DNA of 64,000 bases from Nymphaea colorata (lineage: Eukaryota > Streptophyta > Magnoliopsida > Nymphaeales > Nymphaeaceae). Below, piece by piece: positions 1 through 63,006 of this stretch (its first letter is position 1; each line of letters opens with the position of its first letter). The notes below the pieces were generated by a model, which saw only the letters and a list, made by a program, of their open reading frames with translations, was not told where the DNA came from and ran no database searches. The stretch lies in NCBI RefSeq assembly GCF_008831285.2, contig NC_045139.1:1284204-1348203 (forward strand), read 5' to 3'. The position numbers and the translations under genes were made by a program.

Positions 1-3000
1 AACGTCCCAACCATCAAGTTCAAAATGTCAAATGGTCAGTTTTAGGAGGTCATGTGTGAGACAGGTGTGTTAACTACGAAAAAACTCAGGTAGTAAAGAT
101 ACGATGAACCCCGTACAACAAGAGGGGAAGCAGTCCCGTGAGACATGGGAACTCCATATGGATCTTGACGAGACATCGTTCCTACCATCAAGTTGAAAAT
201 GTCAATTAAATGCACCTGAAATAAATTACTGACTGAAGACATAGCCGATGCAAGGCCAACTAGATGCGTCAGCATAATGGTTAGTTTTAGGAGGTTATGT
301 GTGAGACAAAAGTATTGACTATGAAAAAATTAGGGTAGGAAAAATACGATGAACCCCATACAACAAGGGGGGAAGCAGTCTTGTAAGACATGAGAACTGC
401 ATATAGATCTTGTTGAGGCAACGGCTATACCATCAAGTTCAAAATGTCAATCGAATACACTTGAAATAAATGACTGACTGAAGATATAGCCGATGCATGG
501 CCAACTAGATGCATCGGCATAATGGTCAGTTTTATGAGTTTAGGATGTTATGTGTGAGACAAAAGTATTATGAAAAAACTAGAGAAGGAAAGATGTGATG
601 AACCCCGTGCAACAAAAGGGAAAGCAGTTCCATAAGACATGGGAACTCTATATGGATCATGTTGAGGCAAAGTCCCTACCATGGTGTTGAAAATGTCAAT
701 CAAATACACTTGAAAAAGATAACCGATTGAAGACATGACCGATGCATGGCCAACTAGATGCATCGGTATGGTGGTCCTTTTTGGGAGGTTGAGTGTAAGA
801 CAAAAGTATTGACTATGAAAAAATTAAGGTAGGAATGATACGATGAACCCCGTACAACAAGTGGGAAAGCAGTCCCGTGAGACATGGTAGCTGCATATAG
901 ATCTTAATGAAGCAACGTCCCTATCATGAAGTTCAAAATGTCAATCAAATGCGCTTGAAATAAATGGCTGACTGAAGACATGGCCGATGCATGGCCAACT
1001 AGATGCATCGGCATGATGGTCCGTTTTAGGAGGTCATGTGTGTGACAAAAGTATTGACTATTAAAAAACTAAGGGAGGAAAGATACTATGAACCCCGTAC
1101 AACAAGAGGGGAAGTAGTCCCGTGAGACAGGGGAACTGCATATAGATCTTGATCAGGCAACGTCGCTACTATGAAGTTTAAAATGTCAATGGAATGCACT
1201 TGAAATAAGTGGCTGACTTACGACATATCTGGTGCATGGCCAACTAGATGCATCGGCTTAATGGTCAGTTTTAGGAGGTTATGTGTGCCAGAAAAGTATT
1301 GACTATGAAAAAACTAGGGTAAGAATGATACGATGTACCCCATACAACAAGATGGGAAACAGTCCCGTGAGACATGGGAACCACATATGGATATTGATGA
1401 GGCAACGTCTCTACCATCAAGTTGAAAATGTCAATCAAATGCATTTGAAATAAATGGCTCACTGACGACATAGCCGACCCATGGCCAACTATATGCGTCA
1501 GCATAATAGTTTGTTTTAGGAGGTTATGTGTGAGACAAAAGTATGAACTATGAAAAAATTGGGGTAGGAAAGATACGATGAACCCCATACAACAAGTGGG
1601 AAGCACTCTCGTGGGACATGGGAACTGCATATCGATCTTGATGAGGCAAAGTCCCTACCATCAAGTTCAAAATGTCTATCAAATGCACTTCAAATAAATG
1701 GCTGACTGAAGGCATAGTGGATCCATGGCCAAGTAAATGCATTGGCAATGATGGCCAGTTTTGGGCGGTTATGTGTGAGACAAAAGTATTGACTATTAAA
1801 AATCTAGGGTGTGGAAGATAAGATGAACCCCGTACAACAAGAGGGGAAGTAGTACTGTGAGACATGAGAACTACATTTGGATATTGATAAGGCAACGTCC
1901 CTACCATCAAGTTTAAATTGTTAATCACATTTACTTGAAAAAAATGGCCGATTGAAGACATGGTCGATGCGTGGCCAACTAGATGCATCGGCATAATGGT
2001 CTGTTTTAGGAGGTTATGTGTGAGACAAAAGTATTGACTATGAAAAAACTAGGGTAGAAAAGATACGATGAACCCCATACGACAATAGGGGAAGCAATGC
2101 CGTGAGACATGAGAACTGCATATGGTCTTGATGAGGCAACATCACTACCATCAAGTTCAAAATGTCAATCAAATGCACTGAAATAAATGGCTGACTTAAG
2201 ATATATCCGTTGCATGGCCAACTATATGCATCAACATAATGGTTAGTTTTAGGTGGTTGTGTGTGAGACAAAAGTATTGACTATGAAAAAACTAGGGTAG
2301 GAATGATACGATGTACCCGTACGACAAGAGAGGAAATAGTCCCGTGAGGCATGGGAACCACATATGGATATTGATGAGGCAACGTCCCTACCATCAAGTT
2401 TAAAATATCAATCAAATGCACTTGAAATAATGGCTGACTGAAGACATGGCCGATGCATGGCCAACTAGATCACGCGACATGATTGTCAGTTTTAGGAGGT
2501 TATCTGTGAAACAAAAGTACTGGCTATTAAGAAACTATGGTAGGAAAGATACGATGGACCCCATACAACAAGAGAGGAAGCAGTCCCGTGAGACAGGGGA
2601 ACTGTATATAGATCTTGATGAGGCAATGTCCCTATCATATAGTTCAAAATGTCAATGAAATGCACTTGAATTAAATGGCTGATTGAGGACATTGCCGATG
2701 CATGGCCAACTAGATGCATCAGCATAATGGTCTGTTTTAGGAAGTTATGTGTGAGACAAAAGTAAAAACTAGTGAAGAAAAGATACGATGAACCCCGTAC
2801 AACAAGAGGGGAAGGAGTCCCGTGAGAGATGAGAACTGCATATGGATCTTTGTGAGGTTTCGTCCCTACCATGAAGTTCAAAATGTCAATCAAATGCATT
2901 TAAAATAAATGACTGACTGAAGACATAGCTGATGCATGACCAACTAAATGCATCGGCATGATGGTGAGTTTTGGGAGGTTATGTGTGAGACAAAAGTATT

Positions 3001-3045
3001 GATTATGAAAAAACTGGGGTATGAAGGATACGATAAACCCCGATC
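1..3045. repeat. Satellite-like tandem array, ~245-bp unit, about 12 copies
   Basis: A unit with conserved blocks (GGCCAACTAGATGC, GTGTGAGACAAAAGTATTGA, GATACGATGAACCCC, TCAAGTTCAAAATGTCAAT) recurs with great regularity. The GGCCAACTAGATGC block begins near 254, 499, 748, 993, 1238, 1483, 1727, 1973, 2216, 2459, 2704 and 2938, so the spacing is 243-249 bp except for a shorter last unit. The copies differ by scattered substitutions and small indels. The array is cut by the left window edge and breaks off around 3045 in the middle of a unit, after GATAAACCCCG. Minus-strand reading frames of up to 148 codons occur by chance and show no protein family. No promoter or retroelement sequence is visible inside. 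The unit length fits a plant satellite. Confidence 0.93.
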
Positions 3046-12339: not shown

Positions 12340-13990
12340 AAAGGAATGGTTCTGTCTACACATTTGGCGAGAGAAAAATAAGAAAAAATAATTAATATTA
12401 AAAGATGAAACCTCTTATTTCAATTTCTCCTTTTTCTTTGGAATGAATTGCAAACTAAATCAATGACTAAGAGTCTAAGTAATATCATTCTTGATGGATC
12501 CAGCACCTAACCAACTTGCAAAAAGCTTTTTTTAGAACTTTATGTGATAGAGACTATACTCATAATTGAGGGTGCATGTATACAGTTACCTGTCCCTAAT
12601 TCCCGTGCTTTTCTATCAATGGGAAAAATCAATCAATGTGGTATGCAAAAAATTTCGCCAACTTAAGCGCCATACATTTATAGTACCTCTCAAGCCATTG
12701 GGATGCCCCTCTCTTTCTGCCATAATGGCTGAGCTACGTGTGGGCATGTGTGGGCAGCTGCTCATTTAGACCTACTCATTTTCAACAGATAGCTGGGATC
12801 AGTTATATGGGGTGATCCTTAGACTCGATCGACCGAAAGCTTTTGTAATTGCATTCCCTTTACATAAAATTTCTAGCTTTATCACTATCTTGCATTGTTT
12901 TCAAATTTTGGAATATTGGCAGTTTCTAAATTTTAGAATATTGAAACATGTATGGAGTTGTTTGAGAGCAGTAACATTATGTTATTGTTTCATGTACCTA
13001 ACCAAAAAATTGGTTAGTTTCATTGGTTTAAAGTGTTCGATGAATCTGTCTCACTTTTTTCAACAGATTCATGAAATAGTAACAACATATTATTGTTACT
13101 GTTTTCCAACCCCTATATACCTTGGATATTGTTTTCCACATAATTAACATTAAGTGGGCATTTGATTACTCTGGATTTGCAATCCACGAGCTGATGTGGA
13201 TCTGATCTGACATGTTTTCTCAATGTGGCAAAAGATCCTCAAATAAAATCCTTAATTATTCAAGTTAAGGGTCTGAGATCAGACCTAAGATCTACACTTA
13301 AGACCCTTATTTTATTTCTTTGCATTGAAAAAAATCGGATTTAAAATTAAAAAGGGGAAGGTTTGATGTTAAGTCCACGGCTCTCAAATTCCGAGGATGT
13401 TAAATATACTCTGCCTCAAGGAGTTTAGAGTAGTTGGTTGAACTGGTGATTAATATCAAGCTAGTTACCGGTTCTATTCATGTAATAACCAACCTCTTGC
13501 ATACGCCTAAGCAAACATATTGGGGTTTTATTCTGCTAAGGGTGCAAGAGAGTCTAGGTGCAATTTTGTAGAGACCCAAATGAAAGAAAAAAATGACTTT
13601 CTTTTACACGCATAAGCTAATTCAATTCCTATAGCTAGAAAGCCACCCAATATATATAAAGATTCATTTGTCTAAGTTGTCTAAACCACAAACTATAAAG
13701 ATCTAATATATATATATATATATATGAGCTAAAATCCTTCAACTATCGAGCTTTATCCAATCACAACCAACCAATACAATGAATCTGAAAAATGTGATTA
13801 AACACATTGCTCAATGCATTACTACTCAATGTAGTGTATCGAGGAACATGCTGTGAGAGGTTGAAGGATTTCTCTTGCTCATTGTAATGCATCGAGAAAC
13901 GTGCTGTGAGAGGTAGAGGGATTTCTCCTGTACAGAAAAAAATCATTAATCCTATATGTAATTGTTAGCATAGTGGAGTATATCAATTCT
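10263..13990. repeat. AT-rich intergenic repeats
   Basis: No gene seen. 10471-10735 is an AGCTCGAG/TTGAGCTC-rich dispersed repeat. 11110-11160 carries a variant of the GTGGGC...GCCCA palindrome family. (TA)n runs lie at about 11680-11702, 12029-12048 and 13706-13725, with a very long one at 12256-12337. An AGAGAAAAA...AATTAATATTAAA segment occurs on both sides of the long run (about 12130-12175 and 12368-12405), suggesting one repeat family or a duplicated element. 13800-13925 holds two imperfect copies of a ~60-bp unit sharing TGCTGTGAGAGGT. Confidence 0.6.
12256..12337. repeat. (AT)n microsatellite, 82 bp
   Basis: An uninterrupted alternating AT run of about 41 repeats. It lies between two related AAAAATTAATATTAAA segments. 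A run this long is likely to be length-variable. Confidence 0.95.
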
Positions 13991-15043: not shown

Positions 15044-15580
15044 CTAGTGCCATTCTTGTTCTTCCCACAATGGACTAAGCTCATGCTCAATGGGGGACTC
15101 TGCATGGTAGAAGGAATAGTCTCTATGCCCATGATCATCATAATTCAGATGATCCCCAAACTGGGTCAGAAGCCCAATGTCATCCATGCATGCATCCATG
15201 TACCATTGGCCCATGCCATGACCAACTGTGCTAGAAACCATCTCCATGTCGACCCACTTGAAGGGATCATCAACATGGCATGGGGACTCCATGAAACGAT
15301 GCTCATCATCCAGCAGCCCATGGGGCTGCCATTCACTGCTTTTGGGCATCATGAAGCCCTCCCTCCCTGAGGTGCTGCTAGACTGAATTTCAGTTTCAAG
15401 GGACTGAATCACACAGTTCAGCCTCTGCTCCTCTGTTTCGCCGGCCTCCGCTTCTTCGAGCAGAGTCATGAGAGCTCCGTCGATCTCTAGCTCTGCCACC
15501 GCCGCCGCCGCCGCCATAGGCTTTTCGCCTTCGTTGGCGGAGATCTTCCATTGGGCAGACTGAGGAGTTGCAGACGCCAT
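15044..15580 (-). CDS. Single-exon plant protein of unknown function, 178 aa
   Basis: An intact intronless gene. The start at 15580 (MASATPQSAQWK) is preferred over an in-frame ATG at 15637 because a TATA box (CTATATAAG on the minus strand, 15645-15653) would place transcription start near 15620, downstream of that earlier ATG. Residues 22-30 are an alanine run. Residues 31-65 (EIDGALMTLLEEAE through VIQSLETEI) form a predicted amphipathic acidic helix. The C-terminal half is rich in Met, His, Asp and aromatic residues and ends LSPLWEEQEWH. It has no signal peptide, membrane segment or known catalytic motif that I can see. Its acidic, soluble nature would suit a small regulatory or interaction protein, but that is inference. 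Codon use is clearly more GC-rich than the flanking DNA. The overlapping plus-strand frame is a shadow. Confidence 0.85.
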   Translation of the reverse strand: MASATPQSAQWKISANEGEKPMAAAAAVAELEIDGALMTLLEEAEAGETEEQRLNCVIQSLETEIQSSSTSGREGFMMPKSSEWQPHGLLDDEHRFMESPCHVDDPFKWVDMEMVSSTVGHGMGQWYMDACMDDIGLLTQFGDHLNYDDHGHRDYSFYHAESPIEHELSPLWEEQEWH

Positions 15581-15644
15581 GAAGAAAGAAAAGAAAGAAG
15601 AAGAGAGCAGTTTTGGATGGGTCTCAAAGGCAGGCACTCTCCCC

Positions 15645-18430: not shown

Positions 18431-18930
18431 CGAGTTCGATTCGTTAAAGCTCGGCTCCTCGGCTCGTGAATCAGTTCGAGCTGAATCATTTGATTAACGA
18501 ATCGAGCTCGAGTTTATGAGTTGACTCATTCAAGTAATCGAACTGAGTTCAAGTTCAACACGTAACTGTCGAGTCGAGCCTTAATCGAGTTTGTCGAGCC
18601 TTAATCAAGTCGATATATTCAAACGAGCTTACGAGTTTTTCGAGTTCGAGCTCAACATGTAATGATGAATATCAAGTCTATTCAAACGAGTTTGTCAAGC
18701 CTTAATCGAGTTGAACTCGAGCTTTACACGTGAAGATGAATGTCAATTCTATTCAAGCGAGTTTGTCGAGACTTAATCGAGTCGAGCTCGAGCTCAACAC
18801 ATAACTGCCGAGTCGAGTTCGAGCTACTTCCATCGATTTATTCTCAAGCTCGAGGTTTCATTAATGGACCGAGCTCAAGCTGACTGAACTCATGCTCGAC
18901 TCGGCTCACGTTCACCCCTAGCTTGGGATG
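18430..18930. repeat. TCGAG/AGCTC-rich degenerate tandem repeat
   Basis: Units of roughly 60-75 bp share ATTCAAACGAGTTTGTC, CCTTAATCGAGT and GAGCTCGAGCT-type blocks, with unit starts near 18617, 18680 and 18752. The composition matches a dispersed plant repeat seen elsewhere in the window (10471-10735, 42230-42700). No coding content. Confidence 0.7.
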
Positions 18931-26913: not shown

Positions 26914-29515
26914 TCACTTGGTAGGAAAAACCATGACTTCGTCGATCACAGGCCCACAAAGGGAAGCAGGATCGTTAGCCTTTGTGTGGTAGAAAGAGCT
27001 GAAGAAAGTAATCCGTGTTGTTTCCCCAACGGCTGTGAACTTGAGGCTTGCTGCTTTAAACCCACCTAGCCCTTTGGATTCAAAGGGAACCTTGAGCGTT
27101 TGCTTTCCTGCAAATGCTTCAACCAGCATCGACCCATGGCAGGAGTTCTTCGCATCACCAACTTTGAACGCAAGGATATACATTTTGTTGGGCACTGTTC
27201 TTATCACTTGAGCAATGGCACTCTCTCTTCCAGCAACAAGCTCGACTGCAGCAAGTCCTGATGGGACTGCAAAATGGCGGGCATCAATGTATTTTACTGC
27301 TTTCAGGGATTCCACAATCCAGCCAGGAAGTGGAGATGTTAAGTCTTCTTGTTTCGGGGGGAGAAGCACACCAGAGGAAGAGTTCTTGAATATAATAGGT
27401 CCCTCTTCAAAGCCACCATTTCTTACCAGATTAACTGCCAGACAGAGGAAAAAGCATTGGTTTCAGAATCTGAATATTTAGATACCAAGAAAGAATAATG
27501 GTGTGAAAACACCACTACCATGACAATGTGAGGTTCCCCAGTTCTTCCAGAAATATTCGTTTCAGAACAAAGGAAAGAAACATGTTTAATAGTGCCATGT
27601 TTAAGGACAGGAAAGTTCAGGTTGCCATGCTTGATTCCTATAGCTGGAATAGACCAAGCAGCCCAACCTTGCCCCATTTTGAGCCACACATACAGAAGCT
27701 CAACAATGGCCACATGAGCAGTCGTCCAAGATTAAAACTATAAACGTGGTATGCTTATCACAATCAAATAGAAGATAAAGAAGAAAACCTTCATTGGAAC
27801 CTGTTTACTACATGGAAATGCAGCTGATACTGAATATCAGAATTTTGTTTTCATTCCTGTCATCTATGATGAGTCACCACCCGGAGATGACAGTAAAAAA
27901 GAGGACCGTTCTGAATTTCACGGAATTCACAAAGCCAGTTTTTTAATTTCCCATGACGCTCAATGTGCTACAAAAAAGCGATTATAAAATGAAATTCCAC
28001 AAAAGCAGCTAAAGATTTTAGACTCATTTGGCCTAGTAATCAAGGCCAGAAGATTGAGATAACCGGCATATGACGTGAGAGTTCAAGGCAAGTCAATCAC
28101 AGCTTTTATTACCTCTTGTTGGTAATGGAGGGGATAACTCCTTGATTGCAACAGCATCCAGAAGAGGTCCACAAGCAGGGTCTTCTTGAATCCCTGGGTT
28201 GTGAAAGGTAAGCCGAGCAATGCTAGAGTTAGGCCTGAACCCCCATGCGTAAGTATCACCACCATCACTGCTGTAGAGTGTCTGAAGGGGGAGTTCACCA
28301 GTTAGAGGTGGAACAGAGACCCTCAGTATCTCGTCCTGTGCACATGTTCTTGAAGCACTGAAGGTAAGGGAATATAAAGTCCCTGGCTTCACTGAGATTA
28401 ACTGGGAGATGGAGGCTTCATTACCAAGCCTGACAGCCCGTGTGCCGTGGGGCACCGCGAACACCATCCCCCCAGGCTGCGGACCACCAGAGATGTACTC
28501 AACCATGCCATGGATCTCCCATTTGGGCAGTGAATACCTGCCTATGATGACAGTCTTCTTCAGGTTGGAAGGACTTGGTGCTTCCTCAAAGTTCCCATTA
28601 GGAAGAAGACCTACACAAAGAAGAGCAACTCCAAATAAACTACATGCTTCAAGCATCTGTTCTTTGAAAGGGAAGTGGACATAGAATGGGGTAATCAGAA
28701 ATGCCAACAAAGAAAAACAGTCAAAAATAACCACAGAAGAACATTCCACCATAAATGACTAGAAAGTAGAGTAATGGAGTAAAGAGAAAGTTGTTCTTGG
28801 AAAAAGAAAAAAGCAAAATTGGCATTTCTGAGAGAACTATAGCATGAGTTTCAGACCCTCATCCTTCATTCACATGAGAACTATGGTAGTCAATCCGAAG
28901 AAGAGATAAACTTATATAGACAGCAAGGCCATAAAATGGACTTTGAACTACCAATGCAGACCCTGAATATCAATATTGCAAAAGGAATAGCCAGAGATAG
29001 TTATTTTGTTTCAGAGGAGACAAAAATCCATAAATATCACAATGACTGATCCCGTGAGCTCCAACATTTTCAAAAGGTGCCACAGAATGAAAACTTTAAA
29101 AAGATCCAACGAGCTTTAAAATAATTTAACACATAAAGAAAAAGCATTGGCTAGATCTTCCGAACCGAAAAAACATTGCTCTCATTAACTACAAAGAATG
29201 CCAAGAAGACAATGGTGGAAAAGGAAGCGAAAACAAAAGAAGAAGAAACCTGCAACAAGACTAAACCACCTTGACCTAGTCCTCCAAGCCAAAAGTTCCA
29301 GACATATCTATATCTCACTTTAAGATAAAGGAAACCAACAATGGGTCCGATAAGAAACACAAAAGGAAACGAAGAACAGGAGCAGAACAGAACAGATGGC
29401 CGAAATGAACATTACCATCAAGCTCTTCCAATGCCGCATCGGTCAGAATGAGATGGCTGATGAAGAAAACAGTAGCAAGGAAGGCTGCCACTCTGAAAAG
29501 AATCCCAACACCCAT
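26914..29515 (-). CDS. DUF642 cell-wall protein (BIIDXI/TEEBE family), 372 aa
   Basis: Three exons on the minus strand: 29515-29416, 28610-28113 and 27434-26914, with GT-AG introns of 805 and 678 bp, both phase 1, giving 1119 nt (372 residues and stop). Residues 1-28 are a signal peptide (MGVGILFRVAAFLATVFF...), so the product should be secreted to the wall. Two tandem DUF642 modules follow. The first begins GLLPNGNFEEAP (residue 34) and contains PHGTRAVRLGNEA, SASRTCAQDE and CGPLLDAVAI. The second begins VRNGGFEEGP in exon 3 and contains PSGLAAVELVAG, VGDAKNSCHG and CGPVIDEV. Length and paired cysteines match the family, whose members bind wall polysaccharides and influence pectin methylesterase activity. 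It ends MVFPTK without a hydrophobic tail, unlike the paralogue at 47885. The exon coordinates are set by phase and conservation. I cannot say which subfamily it belongs to. Confidence 0.93.
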
Positions 29516-34575: not shown

Positions 34576-37500
34576 ATGGATGGTTCTACCGATTTCTCTT
34601 TTTGTCAGGCATGACAAACCGTTACTTTCTATGGTTCTTATTTAGTTTACTTACAATATGCATTTGATATTTGTGATCTAAGTATTTTTAGTGCGACCGA
34701 CCTGAATATGATCCCTGTTGCTCTTCAGGTTGCTTTTGCGGGTGATACGGATCAATTAGAGTCACCAAAGTTCATGGGTGACAGAAGTAAAGATCATGAA
34801 GATATTTTTAGAGATTTTGGTTCTGGTCCAGCACCGTTGTTGTCACTTAAATTTAACTCAGATGCAGGCACTAACGTATTTCAGTCACAGAATTCCAATT
34901 TGATAATGGAGGGTTCACACCAGCGTCAATCTGAGTCGTCTGCAGGGTTTGGTTCATCAACCGTGAAAGTAATTGGTGAACAAAGTCTTAAGGCAAAAGA
35001 ATCTGAAGCAAAGGTGATAAATGAACTGGGAACTTCCATCTCCAATAATTTGCAAGTTGATGAGAGGAAGAAAAAACCAGTTCAGCGAGCAAAGGTCCCT
35101 TTTGAGAAAGGATTCAGCCAAATGGACTGGTTAAAGCTGACAAGGACGCACCCTGATTTAGCAGGTTTTCATTTGGGTCTTAGCTAAACTATTGTTTCTT
35201 GCTTTCACTCGTGGTCTTTCTTCAATGTCATGCCTTGTAGGCTAGCTTTCACTAAGAACATGAATGGTTTCCAGTAATAACATTTTTCAACTTTTTTTTT
35301 CATCATCTAATTGACTTCTTTGGAAAGCCTAGCTCACTTGAGTAATGTTCTTAATTTATTGTAATGATATTACCTTTTTTTTTTTTAATTGTGCGTTCAG
35401 ATTTAAAGGGACAATCGAGCAGAAGACTCATCACCATGGATGAAGTTAAGCAGCATAACAGTGAAGGCTCTATGTGGACAGTTTTGAAAGGCCGTGTATA
35501 CAACATTTCACCATACATGAAATATCACCCTGGAGGTTCTTGTTTGCATATATTGATGATTCTTTCTGCTTTGCATTTCAGTTTCTCATTTTTTTTTTCG
35601 TTTTGTAGAAAGAGCTTCTGATGTTTAAATATAATCTATTAGGGTTGGTCACAGAATTGATTAAGCAAAAATATCCCTGTGCTAACATTTCACCATACAT
35701 GAAATATCACCCTGGAGGTTCTTGTTTGCATATATTGATGATTCTTTCTGCTTTGCATTTCAATTTCTCATTTTTTTTTTTCGTTTTGTAGAAAGAGCTT
35801 CTAATGTTTAAATATAATCTATTAGAGTTGGTCACAGAATTGATTAAGCAAAAATATCCCTGTGCTAACATTTCACCATACATGAAATATCACCCTGGAG
35901 GTTCTTGTTTGCATATATTGATGATTCTTTCTGCTTTGCATTTCAGTTTCTCATTTTTTTTTTCGTTTTGTAGAAAGAGCTTCTGATGTTTAAATATAAT
36001 CTATTAGGGTTGGTCACAGAATTGATTAAGCAAAAATATCCCTGTGCTAACATTTCACCATACATGAAATATCACCCTGGAGGTTCTTGTTTGCATATAT
36101 TGATGATTCTTTCTGCTTTGCATTTCAATTTCTCATTTTTTTTTTTCGTTTTGTAGAAAGAGCTTCTAATGTTTAAATATAATCTATTAGAGTTGGTCAC
36201 AGAATTGATTAAGCAAAAATATCCCTGTGCTAACATTTCACCATACATGAAATATCACCCTGGAGGTTCTTGTTTGCATATATTGATGATTCTTTCTGCT
36301 TTGCATTTCAGTTTCTCATTTTTTTTTCGTTTTGTAGAAAGAGCTTCTAATGTTTAAATATAATCTTTTAGAGTTGGTCACAGAATTGATTAAGCAAAAA
36401 TATCCCTGTGCTATCTTGCCAATATTTTTCTTCATCACTTTACTGAATGCTTGCTATGGATGCTTTAAAAAATTACTATCCACTTGATATGGTTTTTCAG
36501 GCGAGGGAACTTGTTCATGGAAGTGTGTACATACTCAGGGAATGACTTGAAAAAAGAAATTTGTTCAGTATTTTCTTAAAGTTTTTTCTACTTTGCAAAC
36601 TGTTGACTGGAAATTACAAATAATTTCTCACTGATTCTCGTAGCAATGTATTTCAAGCTGATCTCATGTTGCACATTATGATTGAATGAGTTTAAAGTCT
36701 GTTAGTCTCCTGCTCCAGTTTTCTTTATGGCACTTCACATAGAGGAAAATAACTACTCCTTGGGGTTGAGAATGCTTTACTGTGATGATACTTTATCATG
36801 CAGGCATCAAGCCAGAGGCACACACTTAACTCATCAATCCCCCGTGGTGTTGACTCACCACATAGGCATGAAAAGGGAATATGTTGTAGAATTTCTGAGC
36901 ATCAGTGTTAGAGAGACTGAATATGTTGTTGAAAACTAGTTAATCATTTGTGAGAGGAAAGTAGGGAACTGGTGTACAAGGTGACAATAGTCATCTCACA
37001 GAGGAAATAACAAAAGAAGCATTTGAATGTCAAAGGATAGTTAAATTTCTGTATCTCTCTCTCTCTCTCTCTCTTATGTGTGGGCGATTCAACTGCATCT
37101 GATTATCACTCTTGGGGATTTCCAATAAACTAATGAAGATGTACTGGAAGGCCTGATAATAACTAATTTTTTTTTTTTTAGATTATACCTAGTTCTTGGA
37201 TCATTTTATAACTTGCATTCTGAATTGACCAATTTGTTTGGTTGCTTTCAGGTGCAGATATGCTTATGAAAGCTGGAGGGAGAGATGGCACCTCTTTATT
37301 CAGTATCCTTACATAAAATCTTGTTTTTCAAATCCAAAATCTGCAATTTGAGACTGTTGGGAGGTGTTGAAGGTTTAGATATTTCTGAGGCTAAACTGCT
37401 GTCCGGTCTACTGCACTTCAGTGCGCTGGGACAGCAAGTCATGGTTTGTGCTTGAACTAATGGCTTAGGTTATAGTAAACCTTCATTCGCCTCCACAATC

Positions 37501-37661
37501 ACCGGCTCCTGGTGTATGATCCCTTTCAACCCTTTTTTTTGAAGACCGTGAATCTATATCGACTGTGATTCTTTTACTTGCTGGTAGACAAGTATCATGC
37601 TTGGGTGAATGCTGATTTTTTATTGGAGAAATGCTTGGTGGGCTTCCTGGATGTTAGCTGA
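34576..37661 (+). CDS. RLF: RLF-like cytochrome b5 domain protein, 242 aa
   Basis: Five coding exons: 34576-34608, 34729-35164, 35401-35535, 37252-37302 and 37588-37661 (729 nt; 242 residues and stop). Every junction keeps frame. The first intron has a GC donor (TGTCAG/GCATGA); the others are GT-AG. The N-terminus [12 protein letters not shown] leads into a long, polar, probably disordered region (residues 12-140), then [19 protein letters not shown]. The cytochrome b5 domain runs from about residue 165 ([12 protein letters not shown]) to 240. It has haem-ligand His199 in YHPGG and a second His222 in FNKYHAW. Order and motifs match REDUCED LATERAL ROOT FORMATION of Arabidopsis, a soluble haem protein needed for auxin-dependent lateral root initiation. 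There is no C-terminal membrane anchor, so it is unlike ER cytochrome b5. The third intron (1716 bp) contains repeats of the exon 3 end (see 35502-36413). Confidence 0.88.
35502..36413 (+). repeat. Five-copy ~182-bp tandem repeat of an exon 3/intron 3 segment
   Basis: Copies begin at 35502, 35684, 35867, 36049 and 36232 (period 182-183) and the array ends near 36413. The first 34 bp of each copy repeat the end of RLF exon 3 ([12 protein letters not shown] and its GT donor); the rest is intron. Diagnostic differences alternate: copies 1 and 3 have TTTCAGTTTC, CTTCTGATG and TTAGGGTT; copies 2 and 4 have TTTCAATTTC, CTTCTAATG and TTAGAGTT; copy 5 is a mixture. This implies duplication of a dimer of about 365 bp. 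Each copy also has a potential acceptor (CGTTTTGTAG). Confidence 0.95.
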
Positions 37662-40240: not shown

Positions 40241-41390
40241 AATCTGCTCATGCACCCAGAAATGACTATTGACGAGATTATTTTGAGCGATGCAAAATTT
40301 GTATACTCGAATCAGTGACTTCGTTCGAGTTTCTAGCAATGGAAGCTCCCAGTACTGCATTTGGTTCTGTTGGTTCTCCTACAAGCAATCGACAGGTTCT
40401 GAGTAGCTTCGAGAATCACATATCTAAGATCATCAGATCTTGAATTCTCTTCTTCTTATGAAGGTTGGATCTAGAATTTTTCGACCACATTTGGTTACTA
40501 AGCAACGGAAGAAACCCGGATTGGACCTCGAATGAGCAAACTTCGGCCATTTTGTTAATCTCAGATTGGCAGATATTAGATCTCCAGCTTGCTTGAAGGT
40601 TGAATCTGTTTATACTCAAGAAAGCATTTTAACTCTTGGGCTTTATGTGGAAAGGTACAGTCCAGGAACATAGTCGAGTTCAATTTGGAACAGCAAAGAC
40701 CATAAAATTATTTCTATGCTGTGTGAAATCTGGTGAAGTCTACTTTGGAACAGCTTAGACCATACAAATATCTCTATGCTATGTCAAATCTGCTTCTGTT
40801 TGGACACAGTTGTCGTTCTGGTACTTGTCCGAACAAGTGCTGTCTATATAGAGGAAATAGAAGGGCACAGTCAAAGATCAAAATCAATGGATGATTCCAC
40901 TTAAAAAAAGAAAAATTATAAAAAATAATTATCTTAAATATCTAAACGAATATTTGAAATCTGACGCATGGCACTCTTGAATTGACCGTTGAATCGAATT
41001 TATTTGCCACTGATTCCATTCCAATCTGCCGATAGGGAAGGAAATTTCCTTTTGGTGTCTATGCCTTGGGAGAATCTGCTCATGGCATTCAGGTCAAACG
41101 TCCTATCAGAACAATAAAACCCCTTACATAACTTCATGCAATAAATTTTAGGGGCATTCACCAACTTCTTTTTAATACAGTACCTTTATATGCACCTACA
41201 GTTTGACTTCATCTCTTTCTTCCTCCCCATGTAAATTTCTTTCACTAGTTACCAACACGATCTTGATGTTAAGCCTATTTTAGACCGGGAACCTGCAACT
41301 GGGGCCATTCCCAAAGGAAGCTCGAGCCCAGTTCGAGCAAATTCGAACCGAGTTCAATTGAAGAGACCAAGATAAGGCTTTGATAAACTT
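40241..41390. other. Intergenic DNA with a 60-bp duplication
   Basis: 40684-40744 and 40745-40805 are two copies of a ~60-bp unit (TTTGGAACAGC...AGACCATA...TCTATGCT). Otherwise no feature is recognised. Confidence 0.5.
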
Positions 41391-41812
41391 GCACATAGAT
41401 GTGATCCCAAGTTCATCCTGAACCATGGTCCTAAGTCTAGGCTTAAGCAACAGCTACCCATGTTTACTTAGCTCCTTATCTTGCCCCAATACGGCATCGA
41501 GCTCGGGCTCATGATCAATTTATGTCCTTCAAGCCAAAGGAGGTCGAAGGTTCGATCCTTGGAGTGGCATAATCTTGTAGGGGTCTTTTCAAATTGCACA
41601 TAGTTGTGATCCCAAGGTCATCCTGAACCATGGTCCTAAGATTAGGCTTAAGCAACAGCTACCCATGTTTACTTAGCTCCTTATCTAGCCCTGATTCCGG
41701 TTCGAGCTCGGGCTCATGGTCAACTTAAGTCCTTCAAGCCGAAGGAGGTCGAAGGTTCGATCCTTGGAGTGCATCTCTTGGCATAATCTTGTAGGGGTCT
41801 TTTCGAATTTTA
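41391..41812. repeat. Tandem duplication, 2 x ~205 bp, carrying a B-box-like motif
   Basis: Two units start at 41391 and 41596 with CACATAG(A/T)TGTGATCCCAA and are over 90% similar by eye. The second has a small insertion (CATCTCTTG). Each includes GAAGGTTCGATCCTTGG, whose GGTTCGATCC matches the pol III B box. No convincing tRNA fold is present, so this is more likely a SINE-related or chance motif. Confidence 0.8.
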
Positions 41813-43789: not shown

Positions 43790-44188
43790 ATGCACCAACT
43801 AAACTTCATTATGGACAATTATATGGCACAACAAACTGTGTTGATTACATGCAATAAAATGGCAACTGGCTATCTTATAAAGGCCAACAAGCAACTTGAT
43901 TATATGCATATATGTAATAAAATGGCACTCAACTTTTTTGTATAAGCCAACAATCTGTCTTGATTGCCTGCAATAAAGTGACAACAAACTATCTTATTTA
44001 GGTCAACAGGATAGATCTTGATTATATGTAATAAAAACGGCACATAACTTTTATTATATAAGAGAACAAGCTAGCCTGATTACATGCAATAAAGTGGCAC
44101 CCAACCATCTTTTAAATGCCAACAAACTATACTGACACTGTGCAATAAAAATGGCACCTAACTTTCTTATATAGACCTAATAATTTCG
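43790..44188. repeat. Degenerate minisatellite, ~57-bp unit, about 7 copies
   Basis: Successive units start TTGATTACATGCAATAAAAT or variants at 43842, 43897, 43961, 44019, 44077 and 44133, with a more diverged unit before 43842. Each unit has TGCAATAAA, GGCAC, ACTTTCTTAT-like and GCCAACAA blocks in order, and spacing is 55-64 bp. No recognised protein or RNA. The array ends where the CT/TA/GA block and the inverted repeat begin. Confidence 0.8.
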
Positions 44189-47884: not shown

Positions 47885-50800
47885 ATGGCTCGGTTCCTCC
47901 TGGCGTTTCTGCTCGCGGTCCCCTGGATTCTAGCATCGGCCGATGACGGTGAGTTTTCATCCGATTTTTCTGCAAGAAATTTTTGTTTGCCTGAAAATGC
48001 GGCACTTTTTCTTGCATTTCCCTGCTTTTCGAGTTTAGAGTGATCGATCTTGGTGTTTTCCTTTTCCCTTTGATGATCGCTGAGATTTAGGGTTCAAGTT
48101 TTTAATTTGTGAGTGTTCCTGATGATGACGCCTCTGTTTCAGCTCAGGAAATGAAGATTATCTTTATCGTTGAGATAATTGCCTTTGAATCTGGCATTTC
48201 CTGTGAGAAATATGTTTGACGGATAACTCTCGTTTTTAAGTGTCGGCGAAGATAGATAATGCGGTTTTTTTTCCCTGGAGAATATAATTTTTGTTTAATT
48301 TTAGACAAAAATGATGAAAGAATTACTTAGCTGGAAGCCTAGAACTAGAAATAATTTCTTGTATTAAATGGACTACGGAAATAACTGATTATATTTTTGA
48401 AATTAAATTTATTCATTAATTTCTTAGCTTATGTTTAAGTTTCGCGTAGATATGTTCCTACCTGCTGGCTCATCAAAAGATTTGAAGTCCAGTATTCTTT
48501 TGCGTAGATATGTTTCTACCTGCTGGCTTATCAAAAGATTTGAAGTCCAGTATTCTTTTGGACCATTTGAACAATTTTTTTCCCCTCTTCCCGATTACTA
48601 GTTTCACTTTCAGTTGCCCCTACTTAGGCTTTCTTTAGTTATTTTCGTTTTTCTTTCTTTTGCATTCAGAAGAGTGCATCTCTCACTTTGCTTTTCCTGA
48701 ATTTCTTGTAGACATGCTTATTTATTTTTTTGCCTCCTAAACCCGGAGATTCGGAAAGCGGATCCAGGGCTCGTTTTTCTTCGCTACTTTCTTCCTTTTT
48801 GAATCGCAACGTCTTTTATGCGGTTCACCTTATTCTTGGTGATGACCAAAATAGGCGCACTTATCTGCAGGACTAAAAAATTTGTCGAATAAATTCCTTT
48901 GCTTCTATAGATTATTTTATTAGTAACTGTTCTATGTTGGTCTGTCGTTTTTCTTTTGCCGGAGCGTGCTCCTGTCCCTTCACATCGTCAGTCAATTTCT
49001 ATTTTTGTTTTTTAACTGTTTAACTTTTATTTTAACTATTGCTCCAGGCAACGTCGTGTTACGGCGGTCAAATTCTCTTGGATTCTTCGTTCCTCACGCG
49101 CTTTCTTTGTCCGGGGTCCTGTAGCTCGAGTTTGACCTCTTTCTGTCCGCATTCCTTTCTCTGTTCCAAGTATCTTGTTATTCGCCCATGACTCGCAAGT
49201 GACTATTGTTTAAGAAAATAAAAAGGCTTAAGGGTCTGTTTTGTTATTATGACACTCTTAGCAAACCAGGTTTTGTCAAAACCTGGTTAGGAAATCAATT
49301 TTGTAAACTTTGTTTAGATGTTTGGATGTCAAGTGAAAAACTTAGTTTATAGACAAAAATAAGTTTTACATGAAAAGCTTGAGAGGCAGGTTTTTCGAGC
49401 CCTTTATGCAGACCAGATTTTGACAAAAACTAGTTTTAATGTCATCCAAACATTCTTGAAATGGTGTTTTGAAAAACAACTAGGCTTTGAGAGTCAAAAC
49501 CTGGTTTTAGTTTGTCATCCAAACACCCTCTAAATATTATTGGTATTCTGAAATTTTGCCATAGCTTCAACGCGATTGTTTAAGAAACATGTTGAACCGA
49601 AATCAGGCATCTTCCGGAGCTAACTTTTTGAGAGCCTAGAGTTTTCACAAAACGAAACGTCACTAAATTCGCCATAACACCACACATACATTGGAGACAC
49701 ACACATTGGAGAGTCAGGGATTCTTGGCCAACAGTAAATTTAAATTTTAGAGGGCACTCACATATAAATAAGTAAAAATTGATAAATTACCAATATACAA
49801 ACAAATAATGTAAAAGGTTATAAATAAGACAATTTTTTGGGCTGGTGTGGGTATACCCCACGTCAGTACCAACGTGCCTTCACACGCACAGACACACACC
49901 CCTCTCGATCTGGTTTCTTCTGAGAGAATCCTTGATTCAAGCAAGGGAATCAAAACAATAAAAAAGTTTCGGCCGGACAAGGTATGGGATTTAACCCACG
50001 CCCCCCTAACAGAGGGCATGGACAAGGTACGGTTAGGTTGGTCGGAACTCATTGGACTTACTCGGACCGAGTTTCTGAAGTATCCTGCACAATTTTACGA
50101 AAGTCACTGCTTTATTTTTACGACATTAGTGGGACATCTAACTGGATTGAATTCAGTGACACCGTTCGAACATTGATTTGGTCTACATCCTTCATCGATT
50201 TCTATGTGCTGGTGACATTCGTTCGACATATGCTTCCAATTTGTGGCCGGTAATTGACGCTCTTTATGACTGCAGGCCTGCTCACGAACGGAAATTTTGA
50301 GACGCCACCGCCCAATGGCTTTCCAAACGGTGGTTTGGAGGTAGCTGATGTCTTGATCCCGGGGTGGCGAACCAACGGAACGGTGGAGTTGGTCCAGTCT
50401 GGGCAGAGGCAGGGTAGCATGATCTTAATTGTGCCCGAGGGGTCTCATGCTGCGAGGCTTGGCAATGATGCGGAGATTGGGCAGTCTCTAAATCTCGAGA
50501 AGGGTTCCACTTACGCCGTTACTTTTAGTGCGGCTAGGACGTGTGCACAGCTCGAGTCCCTTAACATATCCATCCCACCGGTCTCTTCTCAGACTGTTGA
50601 TCTTCAGACTCTCTACAGCGTCCATGGATGGGACTCATATGCCTGGGGGTTCATTGCAAATACTGCAAATGATTATTTGGCATTTCGGAACCCCGGAATG
50701 GAGGATGATCCCACATGTGGGCCTATTCTTGACAACATTGCCATAAAGCAAATTACCACACCAGAGAAACCCAAAGGTATCGACTCCTTTCTTGCTTTCT

Positions 50801-51794
50801 GATGTTTTTTTCTTTATGTCATGAATGTCAGATGATTCCAAATTGGCTTACGTATTTAGGTGCAGAGGAGAGGAATATTGGTTTCGAAAGCTGGAATTCA
50901 CAAACTTGGCATGCTTCATTTGAAATGTAGTTTATGATCCTATAGTTATACCTTGTAGAGAACGTTATTCCTCTCCTAACGAGATCATCTGATTTGGTGA
51001 ACTTGAAGACATTAGATTGTGAATAGTTCACAGATAGAGAACCCCGTTGCTCTTCTAACAAAGTTATCTGGCTTGTCATGTGAATCCAAATTGGGTGGTC
51101 ATGCTTTTTGAATATGCCTTTTATGAGTTCATCTTAGTTGTCAATATAGAGCACTTCTCACCGTCTTCTGCTTTTACACTTTGCTTCAGACAATGCTGTT
51201 GTCAATGGTGATTTTGAAGAAGGCCCATGGATGTTCCGCAATGTATCACTAGGAGTCTTGCTCCCAAACAACCTCGACGCAGAAACCTCTGCGCTACCTG
51301 GGTGGACTGTGGAATCCAACAGGGCCGTCCGGTACGTTGACTCCTATCACTACTCTGTGCCTCAAGGAAAACGCGCCGTCGAATTGCTCTCTGGCAAAGA
51401 AGGCATCATATCTCAGATGATTGAAACCTCGCCGGAGAAGCGTTACACCCTCGCTTTCTCCGTAGGAGATGCCGGGGATTCATGCCAGCAGCCACTGGCA
51501 GTAACAGCATTTGCCGGCGACCAGGCAATGAACATACATTATGCGCCCATGGGCAACATGACCTACCAGCCGGCCAACCTCTCATTCACTGCCAGGGCCG
51601 AGAGGACGCGGATTGCATTCTACAGTGTGTACTACAACACGCGCACAGACGACCACAGCTCACTCTGCGGTCCGGTGGTCGACGATGTTCGAGTGTGGGA
51701 AGCATCGGGAGCAGCGGCCGGCCGTCAGGGTGGTGGGGCTCTGCTGCTTGGCCTTGTGGTGTATATGGTTTTCAGCTTGTGTTTTGGTATGTGA
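47885..51794 (+). CDS. DUF642 cell-wall protein with C-terminal hydrophobic tail, 389 aa
   Basis: Three exons: 47885-47948, 50276-50776 and 51190-51794, with phase-1 GT-AG introns of 2327 and 413 bp (1170 nt; 389 residues and stop). The intron positions equal those of the DUF642 gene at 26914-29515. Residues 1-19 (MARFLLAFLLAVPWILASA) are a signal peptide. The first module starts GLLTNGNFETPP (residue 22) and has PEGSHAARLGNDAEIGQSL, SAARTCAQLE and CGPILDNIAI. The second starts AVVNGDFEEGPW and has PQGKRAVELLSGKEG, VGDAGDSCQQ and CGPVVDDVRVW. After it comes a small-residue linker (ASGAAAGRQGGG) and a hydrophobic end (ALLLGLVVYMVFSLCFGM), as expected for a GPI-anchor signal. Some Arabidopsis DUF642 members are predicted to be GPI-anchored. 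Likely site: cell surface or wall. The first intron contains a foldback element and a 58-bp duplication. Confidence 0.93.
48444..48559. repeat. Tandem duplication 2 x 58 bp in DUF642 intron 1
   Basis: Units start at 48444 and 48502 (GCGTAGATATGTT(C/T)CTACC) and differ at only two or three sites, indicating a recent duplication. Confidence 0.9.
49240..49535. mobile_element. MITE-like foldback element in DUF642 intron 1
   Basis: The left end GGGTCTGTTTTG...CCAGGTTTTGTC and right end (reverse complement) GGGTGTTTGGATGAC...CCAGGTTTTGAC are related terminal inverted repeats, with CCAAAC/GTTTGG blocks inside. This fits a non-autonomous hAT-type element of about 295 bp. No clear 8-bp target duplication could be assigned. 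Confidence 0.55.
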
Positions 51795-58672: not shown

Positions 58673-61600
58673 TGACCCTCCTGACTGGTCAACCACTTGA
58701 AGCAACAATGTCAGGCTTTAAGTCCTTTTTGCATCAAAAGCAACAGACGAAAGCTCAAGTTGGAGGAAGCTCATATGACTACTCCATTGACCTTCTACCT
58801 TCATTGGGTGCCAGAACCAACCAACGAACTGGAACCAGGAAATTCATCATCTCACCTTTCAATCCACGATACAGGTAATCCTATAACCTGTTCTCCTCCT
58901 ATTCTCCAATTTTTGCATGCTCAACAAACTCACAGGAAGAAGCTTGATGTTCCTTTGCTTCAGGGTGTGGGAGAGTTTCCTGATTCTTCTTGTCATATAC
59001 TCGGCTTGGATTTGCCCATTTGAGTTTGCTTTCTTAGACTACAAACCGGCTACCTTATTCATCATTGACCACATCATCGATGGCTTCTTTGCCATCGATA
59101 TTGTTCTCACCTTTTTCCGTGCATATCTTGATCGCAGAACTCATCAGATGGTTGACAAACCGAAGGAGATTGCTAAAAAGTAAGAAGCAGTGAACTCTGT
59201 CTAGATAATCAAATAAAAAAACGTTACTTTTTTATTCTTTACCCTCTTTTGTTGTGATTTACTCCAACAAAAGAACAGAGTCTCATGATTAAATGGTATT
59301 TGGTGACCAGTATAACTTTGAATTTGGTGTCTGAGTGTTACAGGTACCTATCTACATGGTTCATATTTGACGTATCTTCAACAGTACCCCTTCAGTCACT
59401 TTTCCTTCTCTTCACAAGCCATGCGGCCGGAGTTGGTTTCAAAGTTCTTAACATGCTCAGGCTCTGGCGCCTTCGAAGGGTTAGCTCCCTGTTCGCAAGG
59501 TTCAATCAATGACCACCCAGAAAGATTGCTTCAGTTTACAGTTGTACAATTCAGTGCTTCTTTCTACTTTCTAGCAAAAAACAGAACAAGTTGGGATCTG
59601 CATTCTCACATTAAACCTTGATCCAAGGATAAAATTTCAAGCACCGACTTTTTCTTCCTCATGTTCTTGATGTTTCTGCTTGAAGGGCAATAACTGACTA
59701 ACGCTTTCACATTTCAGACTTGAAAAGGATATCCGTTTTAATTACTTCTGGACTCGCTGCACAAAACTGGTTTCGGTAGCCCTCAAATATCTATCTGTTT
59801 TAATATCTACTGTTTACCATTTTGCCTCTTCTGCTCACACTCCAAAATTGATGTTTCAGGTTACACTGTTTGCAGTTCATTGTGCTGGCTGCTTTAACTA
59901 TCTACTTGCTGATGGATATCCAGATCCAAGAAGAACCTGGATTGGTGCAGTAGTTCCAAACTTCAAACAAGAAAGCTTGTGGACAAGGTATGTGATGGCC
60001 ATCTACTGGTCAATCACGACTTTCTCGACCACTGGTTATGGTGATCTGCATGCTCAAAATGTAAGGGAGATGCTTTTTGGCATCATGTACATGCTTTTCA
60101 ACCTGGGTCTGACAGCATACATTATTGGGAACATGACAAACCTTGTTGTCCATGGTACAAGTCGCACCAGAAACTTTGTATGCTTTCTCCTCCTCCATCT
60201 CTGATTATTACTTTTACCATTTTACTAATGCAGATTCATCTATATCTACTGTAAACATATATCCAAACTAGCAACTATTCTAAAAAGTGACACAGCTATT
60301 CATATTTACATACAAATGGATGGAGCATTAAATGAGAAAACTGACATTTAGATCAACAATCCAGGCGATGCAGCAAAAATTTTGCAGCAAATGAACTCAA
60401 AAACATTAATCAACCTGTTTATCAAGAGAGGGAGGCTATCCCAACAGATGAAATTGCAAGTGATCCAATTATCATTTCCAAGCAAAAACTTTAAATTCAC
60501 CAAAAAATTCATGGAACTGGTCTGGAAATTATCATGTTTTTTTTTTTCTTTTAAATTAAAATCTCAAACCAAATGAAAACCTACAATCATCTAGCTAGGA
60601 GAATAAAGGAAAATGTAAATCCTGGTTATTGCATTTTCTTTCAACATTTTTCGCTTTTTGGGTTTTTAAAAAATTGGCACTTGAATCCACCATCCTTGTT
60701 GTAAAAACCATCCAACCACGAAACCAATCAAGGTGAACAATGACTTTTTTAGCAGGAAGAGTTTGCAAAATAATATACTTTATAGTTTATATTGACTAAC
60801 AAAGCATTCTGGTCAAAATGCACAGATAAAAGGAAAATCAGATCTAACGTAATGAAACATTCTTTATTAATCAGTGCATGATAATCAAGCAAAATGGAAT
60901 GAAAAAAATTACTAATCGCGAGTACTAATGCAACCGACTCATAAGATGAGCTTGTTCTCTTGTTAATTTCACTTTTCATGAGGTACGAGATGCTGCATCT
61001 CTATTGATCACTAAACTTCAGAATGTTATTCTAGAGGAGTACAATACAATCAGCCTCAGAATTTGCTACCAGGAACCAGTTACCTCCACGCCTACAAGAC
61101 CAGATACTAGCTCATATATGTCTCAAGCACAAGACAGAAGGGCTAAAACAGCAAGACACACTCAACGATCTCCCGAAGGCCATTCGTTCAAGCATATTGA
61201 ATTATCTGTTTTTGCCGATCATTCAGAAAGTATATCTTTTCCAAGGAGTTTCATTTGACTTCCTTTTCCAATTGGTACGTGGAAACAAAAATTTGCAACT
61301 CGACATTGGCTTTTTCATTGTCATTAATACATCCGCATCATACTTCTCATGAAAGATTTGACAAATAAGGTTACTCTCACTGAAAGGTGCCAGAGATGCA
61401 AGCAGAGTATTTTCCACCAAAGGAAGACGTGATGCTGCAGAATGAGGCACCAACAGACCTCTACATTTTGGTCTCAGGGGCTGTGGTTCGTATCATATAT
61501 GTATCTCGAATTATATAATGGAAGTCTGGAAGATGTTTACATTTTTATTTCTTCTCTGCAGGACTTCATCATACACAAAGATGGGTGTGACCAGGTATAG

Positions 61601-63006
61601 TATATAAATTATGAACTAAGAAAAAAAAATTGAAAAATCAGCTTCCTGAATAATCTCTTGAACAAAATCCAGATTCATGGCGAGGCAGCCGATGGTGAAA
61701 TGTTTGGGGAAATTGGGGTTCTGTGTCACAAGCCGCAGCCATTCACAATTCGAACTAGCAAGCTTTCTCAGATTTTGCGGCTCAGCAGGAGCACATTCGT
61801 TAACATGGTCCAGACAAACATTGAAGATGGAAACATAATAGTGGGCAACTTTATCAAGGTATAGAATTGAAAAGCTGCCTTGTCAAGAGCATCAAATAGA
61901 ATTTTATTTATCATATTCTTGTGGTATTATGACTGATTGATGGCTAATCGTTTTTTCCCATGCTAAGCGTCTAGAAAGCAGAGGAACCAGCAGCATGAGT
62001 ATTGACCCAGAAATAATATTCTCCCGAGGGGGTCAAAATATAGACGATCCTGTGACAACTGACAGGAGGTTACCACACACAGGCGTTGGAACAGATACTT
62101 ATGGGCTGAGCAATTCAGCTGTAGAGAGAAGGAAGAATGGAACTTTCATGCATTTGGCATCAGAGAAAGATGGCTACATTAGTATCTATGATGCTATCAA
62201 GCATGGAGCTCACACAGACTCCACAGATGCCCAAGGAAGAACTGCTCTCCATATTGCAGCTCTTACAGAGAACACAAAGATGGTCAAGTACCTGCTAGAG
62301 TGTGGAGCAAATATGGACAAACCAGATGCCAATGGGAAAACACCAATGATATTGGCTAATGAGCAAGGCAATAAAGACATTCAAACTCTGTTCAAGAAGT
62401 ATAGGAACCTGGACCAGAGGAAACTACAGACAGCAGGGGAAGAGGGAAGGGAAGACATGATGGCCCATAAACAGCAACAAAGAAGTGGAAGCTCCAGAGA
62501 CAGCGACTCAATGCCTGACATGGTTGGTGGCCCTTCAATTCCAAATAATAGCAGCAGAATTGGTACAGAAACCTTGAGAATTTTCAAGAAAAGGGTTTCC
62601 ATTCATATGCACAGGGAGATGACAGAGACTTCCAGACAACAGCATGGAAAACTAATAAATCTACCCGATACTTTGGAAGAACTTCTCAAAGTTGGTGGTA
62701 AGTATATTACGGTTGGCACCACAAGCAAGAAATTTGTACTACATAGTTCCTAACCAATCAAGTGTTGATAGAATAAGATAATAATTGAACAAATTGCGAT
62801 AACTAGAACCAAATAGGTAAGTATTTTCTCACATTTCCTTTGCTCATCATTCCTATGTACTTCCTATACATGCAGGGCAAAAGTTCATAGGGTTCCATCC
62901 CACAAAAGTGGTCAATGAAGAAAATACAGAAGTGGATGACATAACTGTTGTCCGGGATGGTGATCATCTGTTTCTTGTTGAGGAAGAGAGAGAAAGGACA
63001 GAGTGA
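58672..63006 (+). CDS. KAT3: Shaker-type K+ channel subunit, KAT3/KC1 group, 789 or 777 aa
   Basis: Eleven exons: 58672-58874, 58964-59179, 59344-59499, 59718-59775, 59860-60177, 61035-61274, 61387-61485, 61562-61594, 61673-61858, 61968-62697 and 62876-63006. All junctions are GT-AG and in frame (2370 nt). An alternative start at 58708 ([10 protein letters not shown]) gives 777 residues; numbering below uses it. S1 is about 57-80 and S2-S3 85-150. S4 is 163-180 ([17 protein letters not shown]), S5 197-216, and the pore has filter TTGYGD at 256-261. The cyclic-nucleotide-binding-like domain is about 375-491 ([18 protein letters not shown]). Only about two ankyrin repeats remain (560-636), then a KHA domain (about 700-770; [20 protein letters not shown]). 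The cNBD sequence ([37 protein letters not shown]) and the T in place of V in the filter resemble AtKC1/KAT3, a plasma-membrane modulatory subunit that assembles with AKT1 or KAT1 in roots. No break is seen. Confidence 0.88.

Follow-up and report, generated by a model that had tools for sequence, protein, structure and literature searches.

A plant gene in which the end of one exon recurs inside the following intron raises the question of how such an arrangement arose and what it does to splicing. A gene of this kind lies in a window of 64,000 nucleotides, the whole stretch of DNA analysed, from Nymphaea colorata (contig NC_045139.1). Our main reading, to which we give a probability of about 0.68, is that a recent tandem duplication took place in an intact protein-coding RLF gene, and that the extra units would be spliced out with the intron and be nearly neutral. 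The duplication is probably mostly silent, with at most some transcripts diverted into dead-end splicing.

The gene model possesses five coding exons, and their joined product is an open frame of 242 aa followed by a stop codon. The exons are as follows.

34576..34608, + strand: RLF coding exon 1, joining in frame to exon 2 and followed by a GC donor
34729..35164, + strand: RLF coding exon 2, its C-terminal part within the 8tgb alignment, which starts at residue 126
35401..35535, + strand: RLF coding exon 3, 135 nt long; its end carries the haem-ligand HPGG motif and the donor (GAG, then GTTCTT)
37252..37302, + strand: RLF coding exon 4, with the intron 3 acceptor at 37250-37251, in the 8tgb alignment
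37588..37661, + strand: RLF coding exon 5 with the stop codon, from the gene model and the 8tgb alignment

Exon 1 is the least certain exon; it lies outside every database alignment, and its placement was guided by the reading frame and by what we take to be the N-terminus of RLF. Intron 1 of the model (34609-34728) is an apparent GC-AG intron of 120 nt. The model protein contains a Pfam Cyt-b5 domain (PF00173, E 1.1e-23) at residues 168-239. Among the 51 distinct sequences matched, the best was PDB 8tgb_A, a 'root lateral formation protein (RLF)' (E 2.1e-62). It is identical to residues 126-240 of the model protein at 92 of 115 positions, including the conserved stretch before the Cyt-b5 domain, while the second-best match was a cytochrome b5 reductase 4 (E 1.2e-24). 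By its domain and the 8tgb match, the predicted gene is an intact member of the RLF family, which is plant cytochrome b5-like. An RLF-like gene with exon 3 ending at 35535 and spliced to 37252 had been proposed in an earlier note on this DNA, and both points agree with the model. The junction from 35535 to 37252 keeps the reading frame, and as the exon 3/4 junction falls within the 8tgb alignment, donor and acceptor are supported by homology. Arabidopsis RLF (REDUCED LATERAL ROOT FORMATION) is described as cytosolic, with a domain resembling cytochrome b5, and seemingly acts in lateral root initiation (PMC3872734). The Nymphaea gene shares this domain along with the high identity to 8tgb, and the feature that stands beside this likeness is an array at the exon 3/intron 3 boundary.

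The array is composed of five units, which are distinguished by three sequence types.

35502..36413, + strand: whole array, five head-to-tail units of about 182 bp in the order A B A B C, spanning the exon 3/intron 3 boundary
35502..35683, + strand: unit 1, type A, T10, its first 34 bp being the true exon end
35684..35866, + strand: unit 2, type B, T11, copied donor at 35718
35867..36048, + strand: unit 3, type A, identical to unit 1, copied donor at 35901
36049..36231, + strand: unit 4, type B, identical to unit 2, copied donor at 36083
36232..36413, + strand: unit 5, type C, T9, with one private substitution, copied donor at 36266

The 34-bp end of exon 3 was found exactly five times on the + strand, at 35502, 35684, 35867, 36049 and 36232, and no sixth occurrence was present on either strand of the window. 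These are the tandem copies of about 182 bp already described at 35502..36413, and TRF agrees with them, reporting a period of 183 with 5.0 copies at 97% match and a period of 365 with 2.5 copies at 99%. From start to start the units measure 182, 183, 182 and 183 bp. The last unit, up to 36413, measures 182 bp when the final A common to the junctions is counted and 181 bp without it. The unit represents a 182-bp segment, in which the final 34 bp of exon 3 are followed by 148 bp from the start of intron 3, and each one joins the exon 3 end to the intron 3 start and holds both a donor and an acceptor-like site.

Variation among the five units is confined to four substitution sites and one T-run (10, 11, 10, 11 and 9). 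Types A and B differ by 3 substitutions, A and C by 3, and B and C by 2. Unit 5 matches A at one of the four variable sites and B at two, the remaining site being private to it; with this mixed pattern it may be a recombinant or else have been copied early. The two A-B dimers (35502-35866 and 35867-36231) agree at 365/365 positions. The longest exact direct repeat in 35000-37500, for copies 20-1000 bp apart, is 461 bp at an offset of 365. As the longest such repeat in 20/20 first-order Markov controls was 10-14 bp, a chance origin of the repeat is excluded.

The identical dimers and the exact 461-bp run are also what would be expected if the assembler had doubled an A-B dimer and the true units were fewer, for example three. 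We consider such an artefact in copy number improbable, as an array of 912 bp would be short relative to any long reads used. Moreover, the three types are set apart by four sites and by the length of the T-run, and at least three distinct units are likely to be real. That the units are instead remnants of a transposable or dispersed repeat, carrying exon sequence by capture, is hardly credible. The unit is contiguous with the exon and intron of the gene itself, and no point was found that speaks for capture. When unit 1 was searched by blastn, no second convincing place was found in the window (next best E 0.031), and a transposon or dispersed-repeat origin is not supported there. A 29-base pattern from the exon end had no exact match in viral contigs, and a 29-base intron pattern had none in bacterial and archaeal genome contigs; both collections are non-plant and these searches say little.

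The reading as a recent tandem duplication also permits a course of events to be proposed. The repeat junctions and the array flanks, read directly, have a single base (A) in common. The first duplication would have arisen with almost no homology, by end joining or replication slippage. Later steps would have been unequal exchange or slippage between repeats, the last of them copying an A-B dimer. A monomer duplication followed by a dimer duplication had been suggested from the alternating variants. The dimer step is borne out by the identity of the dimers, but two events are insufficient, as C represents a third type. Reaching five copies would take three events or more, the simplest course being 1 -> 2 -> 3 -> 5. 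The view that the expansion is recent stands, with low divergence among A, B and C and identical dimers. At assumed rates per site and year of 7e-9, 2.5e-9 and 1.5e-9, the age suggested by the mean A/B/C divergence is about 1.05, 2.9 and 4.9 million years, respectively. The dimer step is younger; with no differences between the dimers, it would be at most about 0.59, 1.6 and 2.7 million years old at the same three rates. Gene conversion could make these ages too young. Selection on the copied exon ends was considered. The 34 bp are invariant in 5/5 units, yet by our own arithmetic such invariance would arise by chance in over one third of cases, given four variable sites and one variable T-run across about 183 bp, and therefore selection is not claimed.

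Tandem duplication is not unusual in this DNA, as TRF detected six more arrays in the window whose units reach at least 50 bp, with matches of 74-95%. The RLF array has the highest between-copy match of all the arrays in this unit range. The others are as follows.

31-3042: satellite-like array near the window start, about 12.3 copies of a 245-bp unit, 81% match
13825-13927: tandem array
18646-18804: tandem array
41389-41771: tandem duplication, 1.9 copies of a 205-bp unit, 91% match
43842-44124: tandem array
48440-48560: tandem array

With regard to splicing, the true exon and its own donor remain at the 5' end of the array, and the four extra units would merely lengthen the intron. Intron 3 is 1716 nt long with the array, compared to about 986 nt without the four extra units. 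Near-neutrality is expected because the true donor remains first and the extra units would leave with the intron, and use of the first donor preserves the reading frame of the gene. Most transcripts would be spliced from 35535 to 37252, and the copied donors along with the T-rich acceptors may yield a minor dead-end share.

The donor in 5/5 units is GAG followed by GTTCTTGT, in line with the earlier proposal of five potential donors, and all are identical in sequence. Its pairing with U1, calculated as a duplex energy with the register not forced, is -4.2 kcal/mol, and 19.7% of the 6445 GT sites in the window are equal or better. On these energies the array donor is weak, as are the other donors of the gene (-4.5 for the GC site, -5.6 and -2.3). 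The T-rich acceptor TTTTGTAG follows the donor in every unit, the distance between the two being 73, 74, 73, 74 and 72 nt in units 1-5. Among the 7627 AG sites these internal acceptors rank within the best 0.13% for units 1-4 and the best 0.33% for unit 5, while the four real acceptors of the gene rank below them at 0.84-4.3%, that of intron 3 being at 0.84%. The ranking is by an ad hoc pyrimidine score which favours T-runs and does not replace a trained predictor. In the units scanned (1, 2 and 5), a branch-like YTNAY motif is situated at a distance of 19-21 nt from the AG, and one is also found at 23 nt before the real intron 3 acceptor. A second acceptor-like site, TTTCAG, is present in units 1, 3 and 5 and is replaced by TTTCAA in units 2 and 4. 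On the same pyrimidine score it ranks at 0.5%, above the real acceptors of the gene. It lies 46 nt after the donor of its own unit, a distance too short for a plant intron, but it could still serve an earlier donor.

An acceptor had been attributed to each copy, with splicing to the next donor giving a 109-nt cassette that meets an in-frame TAA after about six codons. All five acceptors were found, yet only four cassettes are possible, as no array donor follows the acceptor of unit 5, which would join at 36338. The cassette length and the TAA after six codons hold for all four. Each is preceded by TTTTGTAG and begins 73-74 nt after the donor of the unit to which it belongs.

35609..35717, + strand: first possible 109-nt nonsense cassette
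35792-35900, + strand: second possible cassette
35974-36082, + strand: third possible cassette
36157-36265, + strand: fourth possible cassette

The TAA is at nt 18-20 of each cassette, 89 nt from the cassette end and 140 nt from the exon 4/5 junction. A stop sufficiently upstream of an exon junction marks a transcript for decay (the 50-nt rule). With these distances, transcripts bearing a cassette are a predicted decay target. Among the five donors joined to the acceptor at 37252, only donor 1 gives the full-length 242-aa frame. Extension of exon 3 to donor 2, 3, 4 or 5 gives the same truncated product of 229 aa, and a product of 207 aa results when any single cassette is included, or the first two, the first three or all four at once. 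Every modelled product that includes a cassette or uses a later donor thus carries a premature stop. Skipping of exon 3 (135 nt) would be in frame, giving 197 aa and removing about the first half of the haem domain.

Decoy splicing or nonsense-mediated decay, as proposed earlier, is plausible in that it fits the sequence. Minor unproductive splicing is plausible because the donors are weak while the internal acceptors outscore those of the gene itself, and for the latter reason aberrant splicing may exceed a minor share. A stronger reading takes the array as an unproductive-splicing device, in which the four nonsense cassettes and the alternative donors would lower RLF through nonsense-mediated decay in a copy-number dependent manner. 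We regard this as unlikely, with a small but real chance. All four cassettes are 109 nt long and frame-shifting, with the position of the TAA fitting decay, and the acceptor tracts with their branch-like motif outscore the real intron 3 acceptor. Against this, the array donor is weak, the copied donors merely equal the first in sequence, and only the first is preceded by the full exon 3. An intron of 73-74 nt is also near the lower size end for plants. The boldest form of the proposal takes donor, mini-intron of 73-74 nt containing a branch-like motif, strong acceptor and 109-nt cassette, the last closed by the following donor, as a self-contained module. This module would have expanded into a newly born, copy-number-tuned poison-exon array of RLF, setting haem-protein dosage and root branching; we find this very doubtful.

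As read from its sequence, the RLF array is a donor-containing tandem repeat, with precedents in human ABCA7 and potato RdRp. The human ABCA7 intronic VNTR has a unit of 25 bp that opens with the GT of the exon 18 donor, and ranges from about 12 to about 427 copies (PMC5954066). Use of the donor one unit further retains one unit and leads to a frameshift and premature stop, a precedent which favours the device reading. In the same report, array length altered exon 19 skipping and left second-donor use unchanged, which speaks against it (PMC5954066). Both arrays start at the donor of an exon, and the authentic donor sequence is present in each RLF unit (5/5). The RLF array differs in its unit of about 182 bp, which holds 34 coding bases and an acceptor, and in having five copies.

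In potato RdRp a boundary-crossing tandem duplication gave a truly spliced new intron with 106 RNA-seq reads, and the authors used reads across the duplicate boundaries as a check on assembly error (PMC4974935). The RLF array is similar in being an exon-intron boundary tandem duplication in a plant gene, carrying ready-made splice signals. The potato duplication concerns the 3' intron boundary (acceptor), whereas the RLF array concerns the 5' boundary (donor) and has five units. The ABCA7 effect rests on RNA data and the new potato intron was shown by RNA-seq, while for the RLF array splicing effects are predicted from the sequence. Park et al. (2007) reportedly described an intragenic tandem duplication of ItIVS in morning glory. 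This bHLH gene, as cited in a later report, yields different transcripts (PMC8222801), and its likeness to RLF lies in a tandem duplication inside a plant gene. No published report of the RLF array was found in the literature, where word searches could hardly find such an array, and the search for classical duplicated-splice-site experiments gave nothing evidently to the point.

At present the RLF array, by its sequence features, is a clear anatomical case. If real and recent, it represents a natural duplicated-donor experiment, with five identical donors in one intron of which only the first would lead to the full-length protein. RNA-seq alone could then show whether position or exon context governs donor choice in a plant, and whether tandem duplication is able to create nonsense cassettes in a single step.

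Other reading frames were observed in the window, and the DUF642 and ankyrin/KHA potassium channel genes among them, like RLF itself, point to a land plant. For an open reading frame of 197 aa at 15044-15637 (- strand), Pfam gave nothing at E 0.001. At 59848-62753 (+ strand), two reading frames contain parts of a plant-type potassium channel gene, with ion transport domain, ankyrin repeats and KHA domain. The RLF gene is flanked by two DUF642 (PF04862) loci of opposite orientation, at 26914-28752 (- strand) and 50254-51794 (+ strand), each with two frames.
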